A stretch of DNA of 38,302 bases, taken from positions 1 through 38,302 of the forward strand of contig JAQCEV010000017.1 in NCBI GenBank assembly GCA_027618515.1, given 5' to 3'. A program made the translations under genes and the position numbers. This DNA is from Chloroflexota bacterium. GTDB taxonomy: Bacteria > Chloroflexota > Dehalococcoidia > Lucifugimonadales > Australimonadaceae. Shown here in pieces: positions 313 through 23,117 of the stretch; positions within the stretch are counted from its first letter, which is position 1, and each line of letters opens with the position of its first letter. The notes beneath the pieces were generated by a model. It was not told the DNA's origin. It did not search any database and was given only the letters and a program-made list of their open reading frames with translations.

Positions 313-2364
313 CTAGTTGCCGAGGATCTCGCGGTTAATCCACTCAGGGAACGCCGCCTCAGGCCAGATGATGAACAGCAGGTTGTCCGCCATGACAAAT
401 TCGAACATGAACACCATGAACACGGCAACGGCTACGCCGACCCAGCGGAGGCGGTTGTTCATCAGCATGATCGGCAGCCACGCTGCGAGTGCGAGCGCAC
501 CGTAGCGGAGGCCAACGAACCCAGAGATCATGACAAACCCGAAGAGTCCGCTGGAGACGATGATGGCGGCCGCCTTGAAACCCGGCGCAGTCAAGCTGAG
601 CATGCCCAGGTCCATGATGCTCGAACGCCGACTCGTCCGGTTCTTCAGGTGGAAGAACAGTTGAAGCAGCGACAGGAAGATGACACCGCCTGACATGAGC
701 TTGGGCAAGAACGCTGCGGTCGGGGTGAACCCGCCCGCCGATGCGTACATAGCCATGCCTCCACCCACCATCAACAAGATGGGGATGTTCTTGACGTCGA
801 TCAAGGCTCCCATCAGGGAGACCGGGGCAGCGGGCTCGGTGCTGATGCCAGCCGCAGCATTCTCAGCATCCTCCCGTGCGAACGTGTCTGCGGCTTGCTT
901 CTTGCCGGAACGCCAGAAGAAGTACGCGGAGAGAACGGCGATCACTACGAGGACGATCGACAAAGGCCGCGTGACCACGCCTATGGCTCCGTGGATGTTG
1001 ACCGCCGACTGGAAATTCAACTCGATGACAGGCCCAAGAATCACTCCCAGCAGCAGCGGGGGGCGCGGCCACTGGAACAACTTCATGATGAGACCTATGC
1101 CCATGAAGGTGAGCATGATGGGAATCGCGAGCCAGTTGGTCATGTTGACCACACCGGTCAGGAACGCGATCGGGATGATCACGCCACCAATGATCGGGTA
1201 TGGCAGCCGGGTGAGCTTCGCAAGCTGGCCGGTAGCCAAAATACCGAGGCCGGTGACCATGACGTTGCCGATGGCCAGGGTGATGACCAACAGGATCGTG
1301 ACGTCGGCGAACCTGCCCAACATCTGAGGGCCTGGCGTTACGTCCATGGCGACCATGGCGATAAGCACGATAGCCCATGCCAGCCCACCAGGGACACCCA
1401 GTGCCAGAGTTGGGATCGCTTGACCGGCTTCTTTGGAGTTCTGGGCCGATTCTGCAAAGAGCACGCCGTCAAGGGAGCCCTTGCCGAATTGACTCTTGTC
1501 CTTGGTGAAGAAGATACCGAAGGCGTAGGCAAGCCAGTCGATGACCGCAGCACCAACACCAGGGATAGCCCCCATGAGGACGCCGAAGAGGGACTGGCGA
1601 ATCATGACCCGCCATTGGCTCAGGCCGTACTTGGTTCCGCGCCAGACTTCAGCAGTGCTGATGACCGCATCAGGCGGCGCAACGGATCGGCGGGCCATGG
1701 AGAGGTCGAGCATCTCCGGCAAGGCGAAGAGGCCAAGAGTAGTTGCGATGAGCGGAAGACCGCTCCAAAGGGCGGGCTGCTGGAACACGTATCGCACGTC
1801 ACCCGTGATGGGGTTGATGCCGACGGTACCGAGCAGGATGCCTAGGGCGCCAGCGGCCAGGCCTTTGACCATCGCGCCGGTGCTCAGGGCCGAGACCATG
1901 GCGATGCCAAAGAAGGCCATAGCGGCGATCTCTGGGAAGCCGAAGGAAAGGACGAACGGCTTGATGATCGGGATGAGCGCCGCGAGTACGACGGCACCGA
2001 CGATTCCACCAAACATGGACACGCCGTAGACGGCGCCTAGCGTATGCGCAGCTTTGCCTTGTCTCGCAAGTTGATGGCCTTCTAAGAAGGTCACCTGCGT
2101 GGCAGCACCTGGTTGCCCGAGCAATATCGCGGGGATCGAGTCCAGCGTGTTGTTCACGCCAGTCATTGACGCCAGCATCACGAGACCGATCGCAGGGTCA
2201 TCCCGGAAGAATTCCACGATGAACGGGATGGAGAGCGCCATGATCAGGACGCCTGATGCGCCCGGGATGATGCCGGTCACTGCCGCTATCAACACGGCTA
2301 CGGTCACGGCGATCCAGTAGACGGGGTTGCCTAGATTGGCTAGGGCTTCGGTTATCTCACTCAC
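313..2364 (-). CDS. TctA-family transporter permease with C-terminal TctB-like region
   Basis: Large membrane subunit of a tripartite tricarboxylate transporter, which imports carboxylates using an ion gradient and a TctC binding protein. The 683-residue protein is almost entirely hydrophobic. Residues about 1-500 match TctA, including the early G-x-I-P-G-A-S-G stretch and an internal I-P-G-V-G-A repeat of it. A charged linker near residues 495-520 is followed by about 160 residues with four further membrane segments. Because TctA alone is about 500 residues, this extra part is most likely the small TctB subunit fused on. The start is GTG with GGAG 6-7 nt upstream. It lies 141 nt downstream of the TctC gene on the same strand, with a hairpin in between. 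The substrate cannot be read from sequence. Confidence 0.88.
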   Translation of the reverse strand: MSEITEALANLGNPVYWIAVTVAVLIAAVTGIIPGASGVLIMALSIPFIVEFFRDDPAIGLVMLASMTGVNNTLDSIPAILLGQPGAATQVTFLEGHQLARQGKAAHTLGAVYGVSMFGGIVGAVVLAALIPIIKPFVLSFGFPEIAAMAFFGIAMVSALSTGAMVKGLAAGALGILLGTVGINPITGDVRYVFQQPALWSGLPLIATTLGLFALPEMLDLSMARRSVAPPDAVISTAEVWRGTKYGLSQWRVMIRQSLFGVLMGAIPGVGAAVIDWLAYAFGIFFTKDKSQFGKGSLDGVLFAESAQNSKEAGQAIPTLALGVPGGLAWAIVLIAMVAMDVTPGPQMLGRFADVTILLVITLAIGNVMVTGLGILATGQLAKLTRLPYPIIGGVIIPIAFLTGVVNMTNWLAIPIMLTFMGIGLIMKLFQWPRPPLLLGVILGPVIELNFQSAVNIHGAIGVVTRPLSIVLVVIAVLSAYFFWRSGKKQAADTFAREDAENAAAGISTEPAAPVSLMGALIDVKNIPILLMVGGGMAMYASAGGFTPTAAFLPKLMSGGVIFLSLLQLFFHLKNRTSRRSSIMDLGMLSLTAPGFKAAAIIVSSGLFGFVMISGFVGLRYGALALAAWLPIMLMNNRLRWVGVAVAVFMVFMFEFVMADNLLFIIWPEAAFPEWINREILGN

Positions 2365-5035: not shown

Positions 5036-6301
5036 CTAGCTCGTAACGGGCTCGGGGAACATGGACGCCCGTGTCTGTTCGCGGAAGTCGGCGGTTGCGG
5101 ACATGACCGTGTCGATAGCGACGACGTTGTAGTAGGTGTCGCCGGTGCCAGCGGGGTCACCGCCGTCTGCTACGACTCTGACGCCCTGTGCGAGTTGCTT
5201 GCGCATGATGATGATGGCTTTGTCCGCAGGGCCGAGGTGCTCGATGGAACGATCGACGATGGGGCCCATGCTTTCCTGCACGGCGTGATCCTGGACGTTG
5301 ACGCCGAAGATGCCGGTGAAGGTGAACTTCTTCTGTGCCTCGCGGTCGATGAGATAGTCGTTGGTGAGGGCCCGAACTTTCTTGAAGTCCGGCGTCTGTT
5401 CGCCGGGGCCAGTGCCGAGGATACGGGCGACGAGTTCCTGATCCTCCATGCCTGTTCCTGAGGGACTGTACTCCCAGTTGTAGACCATGCAGGTGTTGTC
5501 ATCCATCGGCACCCACATGTGACCGGCGACGATGTCGTTGCCCGAGAAGGGCTCCTGGCGTATCTGGGTGAACGGCATGATGAAGTGATATCCGCGCACG
5601 TGGAGCTTGTCTTCATCGAGTTGGCGGATGCCGTAGTAGGCGTAGCCGTAGTCGGTCTCATCGACCTCTAGCTTGGGCGCTTTGCCTCGGACAAAGGGCA
5701 TGGACGGGCTGACGCCCGGCAGGTCAGTGTCGTTGGTGAGTCGACGGTGGAGGATCGGTGCGTGGGAGGTGTCGAGCCCACCTTCCATGGCTTGGAGCCA
5801 GTTGCACTCTTCATAGGTCTTGTTGACGTGGCGTTGGTCCTCAGGGGCCTGAGTCCATGCGAATTCCGGGAGCGGCGGTTGCTTGTCGGCTGGGCCCATG
5901 AACGTCCAGATGAGCCCGCCCATCTCCGCCGTGGGGTAGGCCACGTTCTTGATCTTCTGGCTGAAGTCGGTGTCGTTGGGCTCATTCATCTGGTGAACGC
6001 ATTGGCCCGTGTGGTCGAACTTCCAACCGTGGTAAACGCAGCGAAGGCCGTCCTCTTCGTTGCGCCCGAACCAAAGGGATGCGCCTCGATGCGGACAGGA
6101 CTCAGCCATGAGGCCGACGCGGCCAGATGTGTCACGGAAGGCGATCAGCTTTTCGCCGAGGAGCCGAACGCGCAGAGGAGAGCCATCGGGTTCGACTTCC
6201 CATGACATACCGACGGGCATCCAGTAGCGCCGCATGAGGTTCCCCATGGGGGTACCGGGGCTAACGAGGGTTAGGGCGTCGTTCTCTGTTTGGGTGAGCA
6301 T
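5036..6301 (-). CDS. Rieske [2Fe-2S] ring-hydroxylating oxygenase, alpha subunit
   Basis: Oxygenase component of a phthalate-dioxygenase-type Rieske non-haem iron system, 421 residues. The Rieske cluster ligands are C69-P-H71 and C88-V-Y-H91. The mononuclear iron site shows D177-T-S-H180-A-P-I-L-H185, matching the D-x2-H-x4-H pattern in which the two histidines bind iron and the aspartate bridges to the neighbouring cluster. The ATG has a strong AGGAGG 7 nt upstream. No ferredoxin or reductase partner is adjacent, so electrons must come from elsewhere. It is similar in layout to the oxygenase at 21148-22440 and to the fragment at 19898-20366. The substrate is not predictable. Confidence 0.93.
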   Translation of the reverse strand: MLTQTENDALTLVSPGTPMGNLMRRYWMPVGMSWEVEPDGSPLRVRLLGEKLIAFRDTSGRVGLMAESCPHRGASLWFGRNEEDGLRCVYHGWKFDHTGQCVHQMNEPNDTDFSQKIKNVAYPTAEMGGLIWTFMGPADKQPPLPEFAWTQAPEDQRHVNKTYEECNWLQAMEGGLDTSHAPILHRRLTNDTDLPGVSPSMPFVRGKAPKLEVDETDYGYAYYGIRQLDEDKLHVRGYHFIMPFTQIRQEPFSGNDIVAGHMWVPMDDNTCMVYNWEYSPSGTGMEDQELVARILGTGPGEQTPDFKKVRALTNDYLIDREAQKKFTFTGIFGVNVQDHAVQESMGPIVDRSIEHLGPADKAIIIMRKQLAQGVRVVADGGDPAGTGDTYYNVVAIDTVMSATADFREQTRASMFPEPVTS

Positions 6302-21147: not shown

Positions 21148-22440
21148 CTACTCTTTCCCGTTCCCTGCAGTGGCGGCGGACATCTCGTGGACGCCATGAC
21201 CAGCGTTCGATCCTGTACCGTTGGCGGTGGCCTTCTTCTTGGCCAGATGCGGGTAGACTTTTCGCCAGTCGCTGCCCTTGGGGTAGTGGGCCGCGAAGGT
21301 GTCGATGTGATCCTGCGGGAGCTCCGGGTCCTTGGACGTGTGGGGCAACGGCAATCCCTTCTGGAAATTCTCGACCGCCTTCAACAGGAATCTACGGACG
21401 GCAATGACGCCTTTATCGCTTACGGCAAGATGCTCTGTAGTGCGATCGTAGACCCGGCCCATGGACTCGGTCGCCATGGCATCGTGGCCCAAGAAGTTCA
21501 TGCCGAGACCTAGGAACGTCTTCGTGCGCTGCTCCTCACGGTCGATCAGGTAGTCGTTGTCCGCGCGGCGGTGCCGGACGAAGCCTGGCCCGATCTGGTC
21601 GCGGCGAGGTATTTCTTCATCAGGCGCCATGGGCTCTGCGGTCATGCCGAAATCCCACCGCCACGAACTACCATCGTCGATGGGCACGTACATGTGCACT
21701 TCACGGGTCCGCGCTGGCACCCAGACCGACAGCGGCATAACGAAGCTGGACACGCGGAAATAGGTCTCCTCTCCAGCGTCTCGGATGGCGACCATGCGGA
21801 CGCCGAAGTCGGTGTCCTCCGTGGTGTACTCCGGGTACTTGTCGAGGTACGTGTCCTCGTAGCCCTTGGCGCCGAAGATGCGGTGAAGGAAGTTGAGGTG
21901 GGCGGAGTCGCACTCGCCCTCGAGCCCCTGCAGCCACGAGCAATCCAGGTAAGACTTGGCTGCGTAGACGCGGTTGAGCGGCATCTTCATGAATTCGTAG
22001 TTGGGCACAGCGGGCATCTCGTCGGCGGGGCCCATGTAGGTCCAGATGATGCCGGCGGCCTCGTGGGTCGGGTACGCGGGGTGCTTGATCTTGTTCCGAA
22101 ATACGCTGTTGGGGGGCTCGGCGGGCGTTTCGAGGATGGTGCCTTCGACATCCATCTTCCAGCCGTGGTATCCGCAGCGCAGGCCACAGTTCTCGTTGCG
22201 GCCGTAAAAGAGAGACGTGCCGCGATGCGAACAGTGCTCGGCCACGAGCCCGATACGGCCGTCAGTGTCACGGAAAGCCACTAGTTCTTCACCTAGGATC
22301 GGCACACGAACCGGAGGGCAATCTGGCTCAGGGATCTCCTCGGACATGAGCGCCGGGATCCAGTAGCGACGCATGACCTCTCCCAACGGTGTTCCCTTGC
22401 GGGTTTCGTTGAGCCATGCATTCTGTCTCTTGGTGAACAT
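21148..22440 (-). CDS. Rieske [2Fe-2S] ring-hydroxylating oxygenase, alpha subunit
   Basis: Intact Rieske non-haem iron oxygenase of 430 residues from the ATG at 22440, which has GAGGGG 6 nt upstream. Cluster ligands are C70-S-H72 and C89-G-Y-H92. The iron site is D178-S-A-H181-L-N-F-L-H186. A low-complexity tail of about 30 residues rich in Lys, Ala, Thr and Gly follows the catalytic domain. It belongs to the phthalate-dioxygenase-like group that works as an alpha-only oligomer with an external reductase; no reductase is adjacent. It diverges from the selenoprotein gene. The N-terminal 'KGTPLGEVMRRYWIPA' is very like that of the oxygenase at 5036-6301. Confidence 0.94.
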   Translation of the reverse strand: MFTKRQNAWLNETRKGTPLGEVMRRYWIPALMSEEIPEPDCPPVRVPILGEELVAFRDTDGRIGLVAEHCSHRGTSLFYGRNENCGLRCGYHGWKMDVEGTILETPAEPPNSVFRNKIKHPAYPTHEAAGIIWTYMGPADEMPAVPNYEFMKMPLNRVYAAKSYLDCSWLQGLEGECDSAHLNFLHRIFGAKGYEDTYLDKYPEYTTEDTDFGVRMVAIRDAGEETYFRVSSFVMPLSVWVPARTREVHMYVPIDDGSSWRWDFGMTAEPMAPDEEIPRRDQIGPGFVRHRRADNDYLIDREEQRTKTFLGLGMNFLGHDAMATESMGRVYDRTTEHLAVSDKGVIAVRRFLLKAVENFQKGLPLPHTSKDPELPQDHIDTFAAHYPKGSDWRKVYPHLAKKKATANGTGSNAGHGVHEMSAATAGNGKE

Positions 22441-22592
22441 CGTCAGCCCCTCTGATAATCGTCGACTTAGCGGCCAATCGCATCTTACGACAGCGATACG
22501 CCATTGTCCCTCTGGCAAGCTGAATCCAAACGACGCCTTGGAGCATCTTAGAGGCTGCGTGCTGTACGCCGCACGAACTAGGAGTAAACCCC

Positions 22593-23117
22593 ATGCCTGA
22601 TTGGCTGATCCAGGGCGACAAGATTCCGCCCATCACGTTGAACCTCATCGATGGTGGCACGCTAACGCTGCCGGACGACACGCCTGACCGCTACGTTGCG
22701 TTGCTTTTCTATCGCGGCAATTGGTGACCGTACTGCAGGCGCCAGTTGGCGTCGTACCAGGAAAAGCTTGAGGAATTGACCACGCTTGGGGCGACGGTCG
22801 TGGCGGTATCCGTTGAGTCGCTGGAGTCCACCCAAGAGATGGTGGAGAAATACGGCCTGACTTTCCCGGTCGCTTACGGCGTAACGGACGATCAGGTTGA
22901 GGGCTTCCACCCGCTGTACAACGAGGATCACCACGGCAGGTACATCCAGCCGATGGAGTTCCTGCTGCTGCGCAACGGGAGCGTTTTCGGGTCTATGTAC
23001 GCGTCCGGGCCGGTGGGTCGGATGGGCGTGGAGGAAGTGCTCAACTCCATCCGCAGCCGCGAGCGCCGCAGGTTGGAGCGCGAGGCGGAAGAGGCTGAGG
23101 CCGCGAAAAAGGGCTAG
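22593..23117 (+). CDS. Peroxiredoxin-like selenoprotein (in-frame TGA read as selenocysteine, U-P-Y-C)
   Basis: One continuous frame of 174 residues from ATG 22593 (AGGAG 8 nt upstream) to TAG 23115-23117, interrupted only by TGA at 22725-22727, codon 45. Both sides belong to one AhpC/TSA-like thioredoxin-fold protein: before it 'YVALLFYRGNW', after it 'PYCRRQLASYQEKL'. In homologues this site reads R-G-x-W-C-P-Y-C, so the TGA replaces the redox-active (peroxidatic) Cys and leaves U45-P-Y-C48. Later hallmarks are 'VVAVSVES', 'GLTFPVAYG' and 'ASGPVGRMGVEEVL'; the tail is a charged helix. A SECIS-like hairpin follows the TGA. It probably reduces peroxides or disulfides with a selenenylsulfide relay. 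Without selenocysteine insertion only a 44-residue stub would be made. Confidence 0.88.
22725..22757 (+). promoter_or_regulatory. Bacterial SECIS-like element with UGA selenocysteine codon
   Basis: TGA at 22725-22727 is followed by a hairpin. GTAC (22730-22733) pairs with GTAC (22754-22757), TGCA (22734-22737) is a one-sided bulge, GGCGCC (22738-22743) pairs with GGCGTC (22748-22753, one G-U), and the apical loop is AGTT (22744-22747). The loop lies 16 nt after the TGA and has G at its second position. Both fit the known requirements for SelB recognition in bacteria. Confidence 0.75.

Follow-up and report, generated by a model that had tools for sequence, protein, structure and literature searches.

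A probable bacterial SECIS element downstream of an in-frame UGA in a peroxiredoxin-like gene of Chloroflexota

Results

The peroxiredoxin-like gene

The window, i.e. the whole analysed stretch of 38,302 nucleotides (contig JAQCEV010000017.1 of a Chloroflexota genome), contains a peroxiredoxin-like (Prx-like) gene with an ATG start, an in-frame TGA and a TAG end (Table 1). With this TGA read as selenocysteine (Sec, U), no further stop occurs between 22593 and 23117, and the translation reads MPDWLIQGD...LLFYRGNW-U-PYCRRQLASYQ... If TGA were read as a stop, the remaining gene fragment would be a 123-aa ORF with a TTG start at 22746; an annotation pipeline working in this way would therefore break the gene.

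The gene product matched the Pfam model AhpC-TSA with 75.5 bits (cut-off 26) and its AlphaFold model reached a pLDDT of 94.7. Structure matches of this model were Bcp/PrxQ and other peroxiredoxins, with ResA further down the list. The protein carries a UxxC motif (U45-P-Y-C48) with Sec in the position of the Cys, but no TxxU motif, as residue 42 is Gly. The SelL-related redox protein model (NCBIfam NF040769) gave 31.7 bits, which is below its curated cut-off of 120. The protein is probably a thiol peroxidase or a thiol:disulfide oxidoreductase.

Elsewhere in the window, two Rieske-type oxygenase-like ORFs were recognised by eye from their motifs on the minus strand (5036-6301 and 21148-22440). 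They sit among many amidohydrolase-like and transporter genes.

Table 1. Features of the Prx-like gene, its hairpin and the same-genome paralogue (positions in the window unless another contig is named).
Feature	Position	Strand	Remarks
Shine-Dalgarno-like AGGAG	22580..22584	+	8 nt upstream of ATG; putative role, from sequence
Prx-like selenoprotein gene	22593..23117	+	174 codons, ended by TAG; codon 45 is the in-frame UGA
UGA as selenocysteine	22725..22727	+	catalytic Cys position, motif W-U-P-Y-C; TGA at the equivalent codon in 106 distinct homologues
Lower stem 5' arm GUAC (proposed)	22730..22733	+	pairs with 22754-22757
Cys48 codon	22734..22736	+	presumed resolving Cys of UxxC; column 48 invariant in a 59-sequence alignment
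Bulge UGCA	22734-22737	+	4 nt between lower and upper stem
SECIS upper stem 5' arm GGCGCC	22738..22743	+	homologous stem conserved and covarying
SECIS apical loop AGUU	22744..22747	+	presumed SelB contact; G at loop position 2
SECIS upper stem 3' arm GGCGUC	22748..22753	+	same basis as the opposite arm
Lower stem 3' arm GUAC (proposed)	22754..22757	+	energy evaluation and pair 6-33 test
Second Prx-like gene (L173)	1079-1765		contig C154, match 45264-45752; in-frame TGA, W-U-T-N-C

Shape and energy of the hairpin

An earlier note on this DNA had placed a SECIS-like hairpin directly after the TGA at 22725-22757, with an AGUU loop starting 16 nt after the UGA and G at loop position 2. These coordinates proved to be exact, the TGA lies in frame and the loop was found as described. 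The same note had drawn a two-part stem of 4 bp, a 4-nt bulge and 6 bp. The 6-bp upper stem (GGCGCC/GGCGUC, one of its pairs being G-U) held, while the lower 4 bp turned out to be one of two near-isoenergetic forms. The drawn structure has -11.1 kcal/mol, a rival form in which one A is bulged out (UGC 22734-22736 with GUA 22754-22756) has -11.3 kcal/mol and the upper hairpin by itself has -10.4 kcal/mol. Because these values are so close, the lower part of the hairpin is ambiguous in the single sequence. When bases upstream of the UGA were included, a different structure was obtained in which the UGA itself is paired.

The hairpin was compared with the bSECISearch consensus model for bacterial SECIS elements (Fig. 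2 of PMC13188914) and matched its spacing and loop rules as the note had proposed. The published limits are an upper stem of 4-16 bp, a spacing of 16-37 nt from the UGA to the apical loop and a minimum free energy of -7.5 kcal/mol or lower (PMC13188914). The hairpin has 6 bp, 16 nt (the lower limit of the range) and -10.4 (upper hairpin) to -13.1 kcal/mol, respectively, and AGUU fits the loop rule with G at position 2 followed by U (PMC13188914). Rfam gave no family match anywhere in the window at gathering score, and nothing relevant around the UGA site with permissive settings.

Comparison with chance

The fold that included upstream bases reached z = -1.62 against shuffled sequence, and 9 of 200 shuffles were as good. 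All 1,231 TGA trinucleotides of the window were scanned on both strands; a contiguous hairpin within the published limits followed 6.3% of them, and an equally stable compliant one 4.0%. In 5,000 synonymous recodings with codons taken from the genes of the window, the hairpin was matched in 1.7% (p = 0.017) and the minimum free energy in 5.0% (p = 0.050). Judged by the window alone, the hairpin thus stands modestly above chance, which is suggestive, and the shuffled-sequence test by itself would leave the SECIS question open. The earlier note's demand that the fold be favoured over shuffled sequence was borne out for synonymous recodings, modestly here and clearly across the family, while shuffling gave the above z-score only. 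It is the comparative data that decide in favour of a SECIS where the window sequence cannot.

Conservation of UGA and hairpin among homologues

Homologues were searched in 250 genomes of the same order. The gene is present in 104 of them, nearly all with TGA at the codon equivalent to codon 45. Cys replaces Sec in L109 and L114 (L224, L225 and L229 were added by a search of the class) and Ser does so in L111.1. The minimum-energy fold of nt +6 to +45 was compliant with the bacterial SECIS model in 88 of 105 TGA homologues, the other 17 having no compliant hairpin within this range. In 76 of these 105 folds, an AGUU or AGUUR loop begins at exactly 16 nt from the UGA, and the sequence AGUU(R) stands at the loop in 98/106 TGA homologues. 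Against synonymous recoding, the mean z was +1.60 for codons +3 to +11, compared to +0.30 in a control segment further downstream.

In a clade of seven homologues with W-U-S-Y-C (L116, L117, L119, L136, L139, L140 and L154), the loop is AGCU, Leu is encoded by CTA or CTG and the hairpin at the usual position is poor; this clade may use a different SECIS. In L210 (genome G105), TGA is kept together with His at +6 (CAU) and a loop AUUUG without the conserved G.

The loop register varies within the order. The full CGCC-AGUU-GGCG register was found only in the window gene and in its same-genome paralogue (L099/L173), which is 52% identical and carries the hairpin GCCGCC-AGUU-GGCGGC at equal spacing. 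Most relatives have CGGC-AGUUR-GCCG, i.e. a 5-nt loop that is one step out of register, and some homologues of genus g48 (L189, L191, L195 and L200) stand between the two forms, with CGCC-AGUU-GGC plus a bulge. Coordinated synonymous changes at the codons for Arg and Ala separate the 4-nt from the 5-nt form.

Silent sites and covariation

Since the element must also encode protein, the earlier note had assumed a double constraint, and this is visible as codon choice. Leu+7, the source of the loop UU, is UUR in 99/106 homologues (80/495 at neighbouring codons), Gln+6 is CAG in 105/105 (47/82 at neighbouring codons) and Arg+5 is CGG in 87/105 (52/251 at neighbouring codons). Ala+8 is mostly GCC across the TGA homologues.

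The pairing in Sec-encoding orthologues that the note had asked for was found as well, with compensatory changes at synonymous sites. Pairs were numbered from the U of UGA, which puts position 15 at the third base of codon +4 and position 29 at the second base of codon +9. Pair 15-29 is paired in 88 of 106 homologues, compared to 67.5 expected and a maximum of 81 in 20,000 shuffles in which position 15 was permuted among homologues sharing the residue. Val+4 is GUU where the second base of residue +9 is A, and GUG where it is C. With one representative per identity cluster, the signal held at 90%, 80% and 70% identity (p = 0.006 at 70%, n = 40) and lost significance at 65% (p = 0.18, n = 23). 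The whole stem is 89% paired in register versus 12-46% with one arm slid, and L201 and L208 have U18-A26 in place of G18-C26. Parsimony on the protein tree gave 8 compensatory and 10 breaking changes for pair 15-29; this count is weak by itself because unrelated variable pairs score alike (15-30: 8 of 49 changes compensatory).

In the lower stem, the basal pair 6-33 is paired in 63/106 homologues versus 43 expected (p < 0.001; p = 0.009 at 70% clusters). Its neighbour 6-32 is significant too, as both depend on the Trp/Tyr codon. Pair 9-30 showed no covariation signal in the homologue test. Since 6-33 is partly confounded in this way and 9-30 gave a null result, covariation in the relatives supports the lower stem only in part.

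It could be argued that UGA encodes Sec here while the hairpin is a by-product of codon bias and of the encoded motif PYCxRQLA, with SelB recognising something else. This motif is highly conserved indeed, and a good hairpin is missing at the usual place in some TGA homologues. However, silent positions follow their pairing partner, as in pair 15-29, and UUR for Leu and CAG for Gln are strongly over-used compared to neighbouring codons. The explanation is also at odds with the homologues that have lost Sec. Among the five same-class Cys homologues, none has a hairpin comparable to the SECIS and four have CUN at Leu+7. The loop G is lost in one Cys homologue (L225, loop AACU on a CGCC/GGCG stem) and in the Ser homologue L111.1 (loop AAUU), suggesting from these two cases only that the G may go where Sec goes. 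A by-product is thus very unlikely, and the silent-site evidence is unusually clean for this SECIS.

At the locus of L111.1 (L111, G096:C43:47922-48932), the Prx-like gene is present in tandem, as a Sec and a Ser copy, and the Ser copy retains the stem. The hits of a close-relative search of the genome contigs were mostly distant Cys homologues, from Bacteroidota among others, and served as controls only.

Sec machinery and meaning of UGA in the genome

All of selA, selB, selC and selD were found in the one genome, each above its cut-off: SelA with 497.1 bits, SelB with 346.9 bits, tRNA-Sec with 71.4 bits and a UCA anticodon, and SelD with 362.8 bits. The SelD gene (L214, C112:7197-8117) itself contains a TGA, and a strong hairpin with the loop GGC follows the UGA. 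A further locus of the genome (L211, contig C50, 956-2002) holds an open frame of 349 residues with an AhpC/TSA-like part, a long C-terminal extension and an in-frame TGA (R-W-U-P-F-C); a candidate SECIS has a GUG loop 21 nt after this UGA.

Across the order, tRNA-Sec was above cut-off in 98 of the 104 genomes holding the Prx-like gene. In the other six (G050, G156, G178, G212, G213 and G222), the tRNA-Sec gene may lie in unassembled sequence.

A sequencing error or a pseudogene, in which TGA would be a mutated TGC or TGG or a true stop and the hairpin incidental, is a most improbable explanation. One base change from TGC to TGA would be enough in an assembly of 178 contigs, and the hairpin by itself is weakly significant; yet the 106 distinct homologues with TGA at the equivalent codon come from independent genomes, the frame is open on both sides and the paralogue in the same genome has TGA too.

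Both release factors are present (RF2 with 468 bits, RF1 with 466.5 bits); UGA is therefore also a stop in this genome. A global reassignment, by which this lineage would read UGA as a different amino acid, could be suspected from the rarity of TGA as a stop in the window (TGA 1 and TAG 17 of 23 long ORFs). It was rejected as having a negligible chance, given RF2, the use of TGA as the stop of 11 of 50 long ORFs from loci of the genome outside the window (TAG 33 of 50), the UCA anticodon of the tRNA-Sec, the replacement by Cys and Ser in homologues and the TGG codon of the adjoining Trp44. TAG stops thus predominate at a GC content of 61%.

Discussion

The hairpin is almost certainly a bacterial SECIS element directing Sec to codon 45 of the Prx-like mRNA. 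When the ribosome nears this codon, the hairpin at 22738-22753 with its AGUU loop would bind the C-terminal domain of the SelB encoded in the genome. SelB, carrying Sec-tRNA-Sec, would deliver it to the A site at the UGA (22725-22727). Translation would run on through the hairpin, and the product would be a selenoprotein whose active site is U-x-x-C.

That the 4-nt AGUU loop represents a switch of the SECIS register which co-evolved with SelB in this lineage appears doubtful. The homologous set allows one to ask how SelB tolerates 4-nt versus 5-nt loops. Bacterial SECIS elements are hard to predict because of their location within coding regions and their variation from gene to gene. About 100 homologous elements at a fixed position, with a near-invariant loop GUU and a silently kept stem, form a clean set for calibrating SECIS prediction.

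Prx-like thiol:disulfide oxidoreductase selenoproteins (PF00578, UxxC) are a published category (PMC9312934, PMC13188914), the members of which are listed as predicted (PMC13188914). Prx-like Sec proteins were described from the Sargasso Sea (PMC1088965) and as GOS Prx-like 1 (PMC2398784). On Sec use in Chloroflexota/SAR202, nothing specific was found in the literature searched. The protein described here resembles the Prx-like UxxC families, as judged from their descriptions, in its AhpC/TSA domain, its Sec at the Cys position and the downstream bacterial SECIS. It differs from the GOS Prx-like proteins in that the order has almost exclusively Sec forms, whereas Cys forms outnumber Sec forms there by 2,740 to 225 (PMC2398784). 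With the TxxU Sec peroxiredoxin (PMC13188914, PMC1088965), it shares the AhpC/TSA fold and the placing of Sec where the peroxidatic residue is presumed to be. Its sequence R-G-N-W-U-P-Y-C is different from that type, with no Thr at U-3 and with Cys at U+3.

In the E. coli fdhF element, the loop lies about 2 nt further from the UGA and a single U is bulged out; this bulged U was not seen in the hairpin here. In common with published bacterial SECIS elements (PMC13188914), the hairpin is a stem-loop inside the coding sequence directly after the UGA, with a 4-nt loop and a 6-bp upper stem, but its spacing is at the permitted minimum. The Prx-like UxxC family and the SECIS mechanism are already known and the gene described here is a new, well-supported example.
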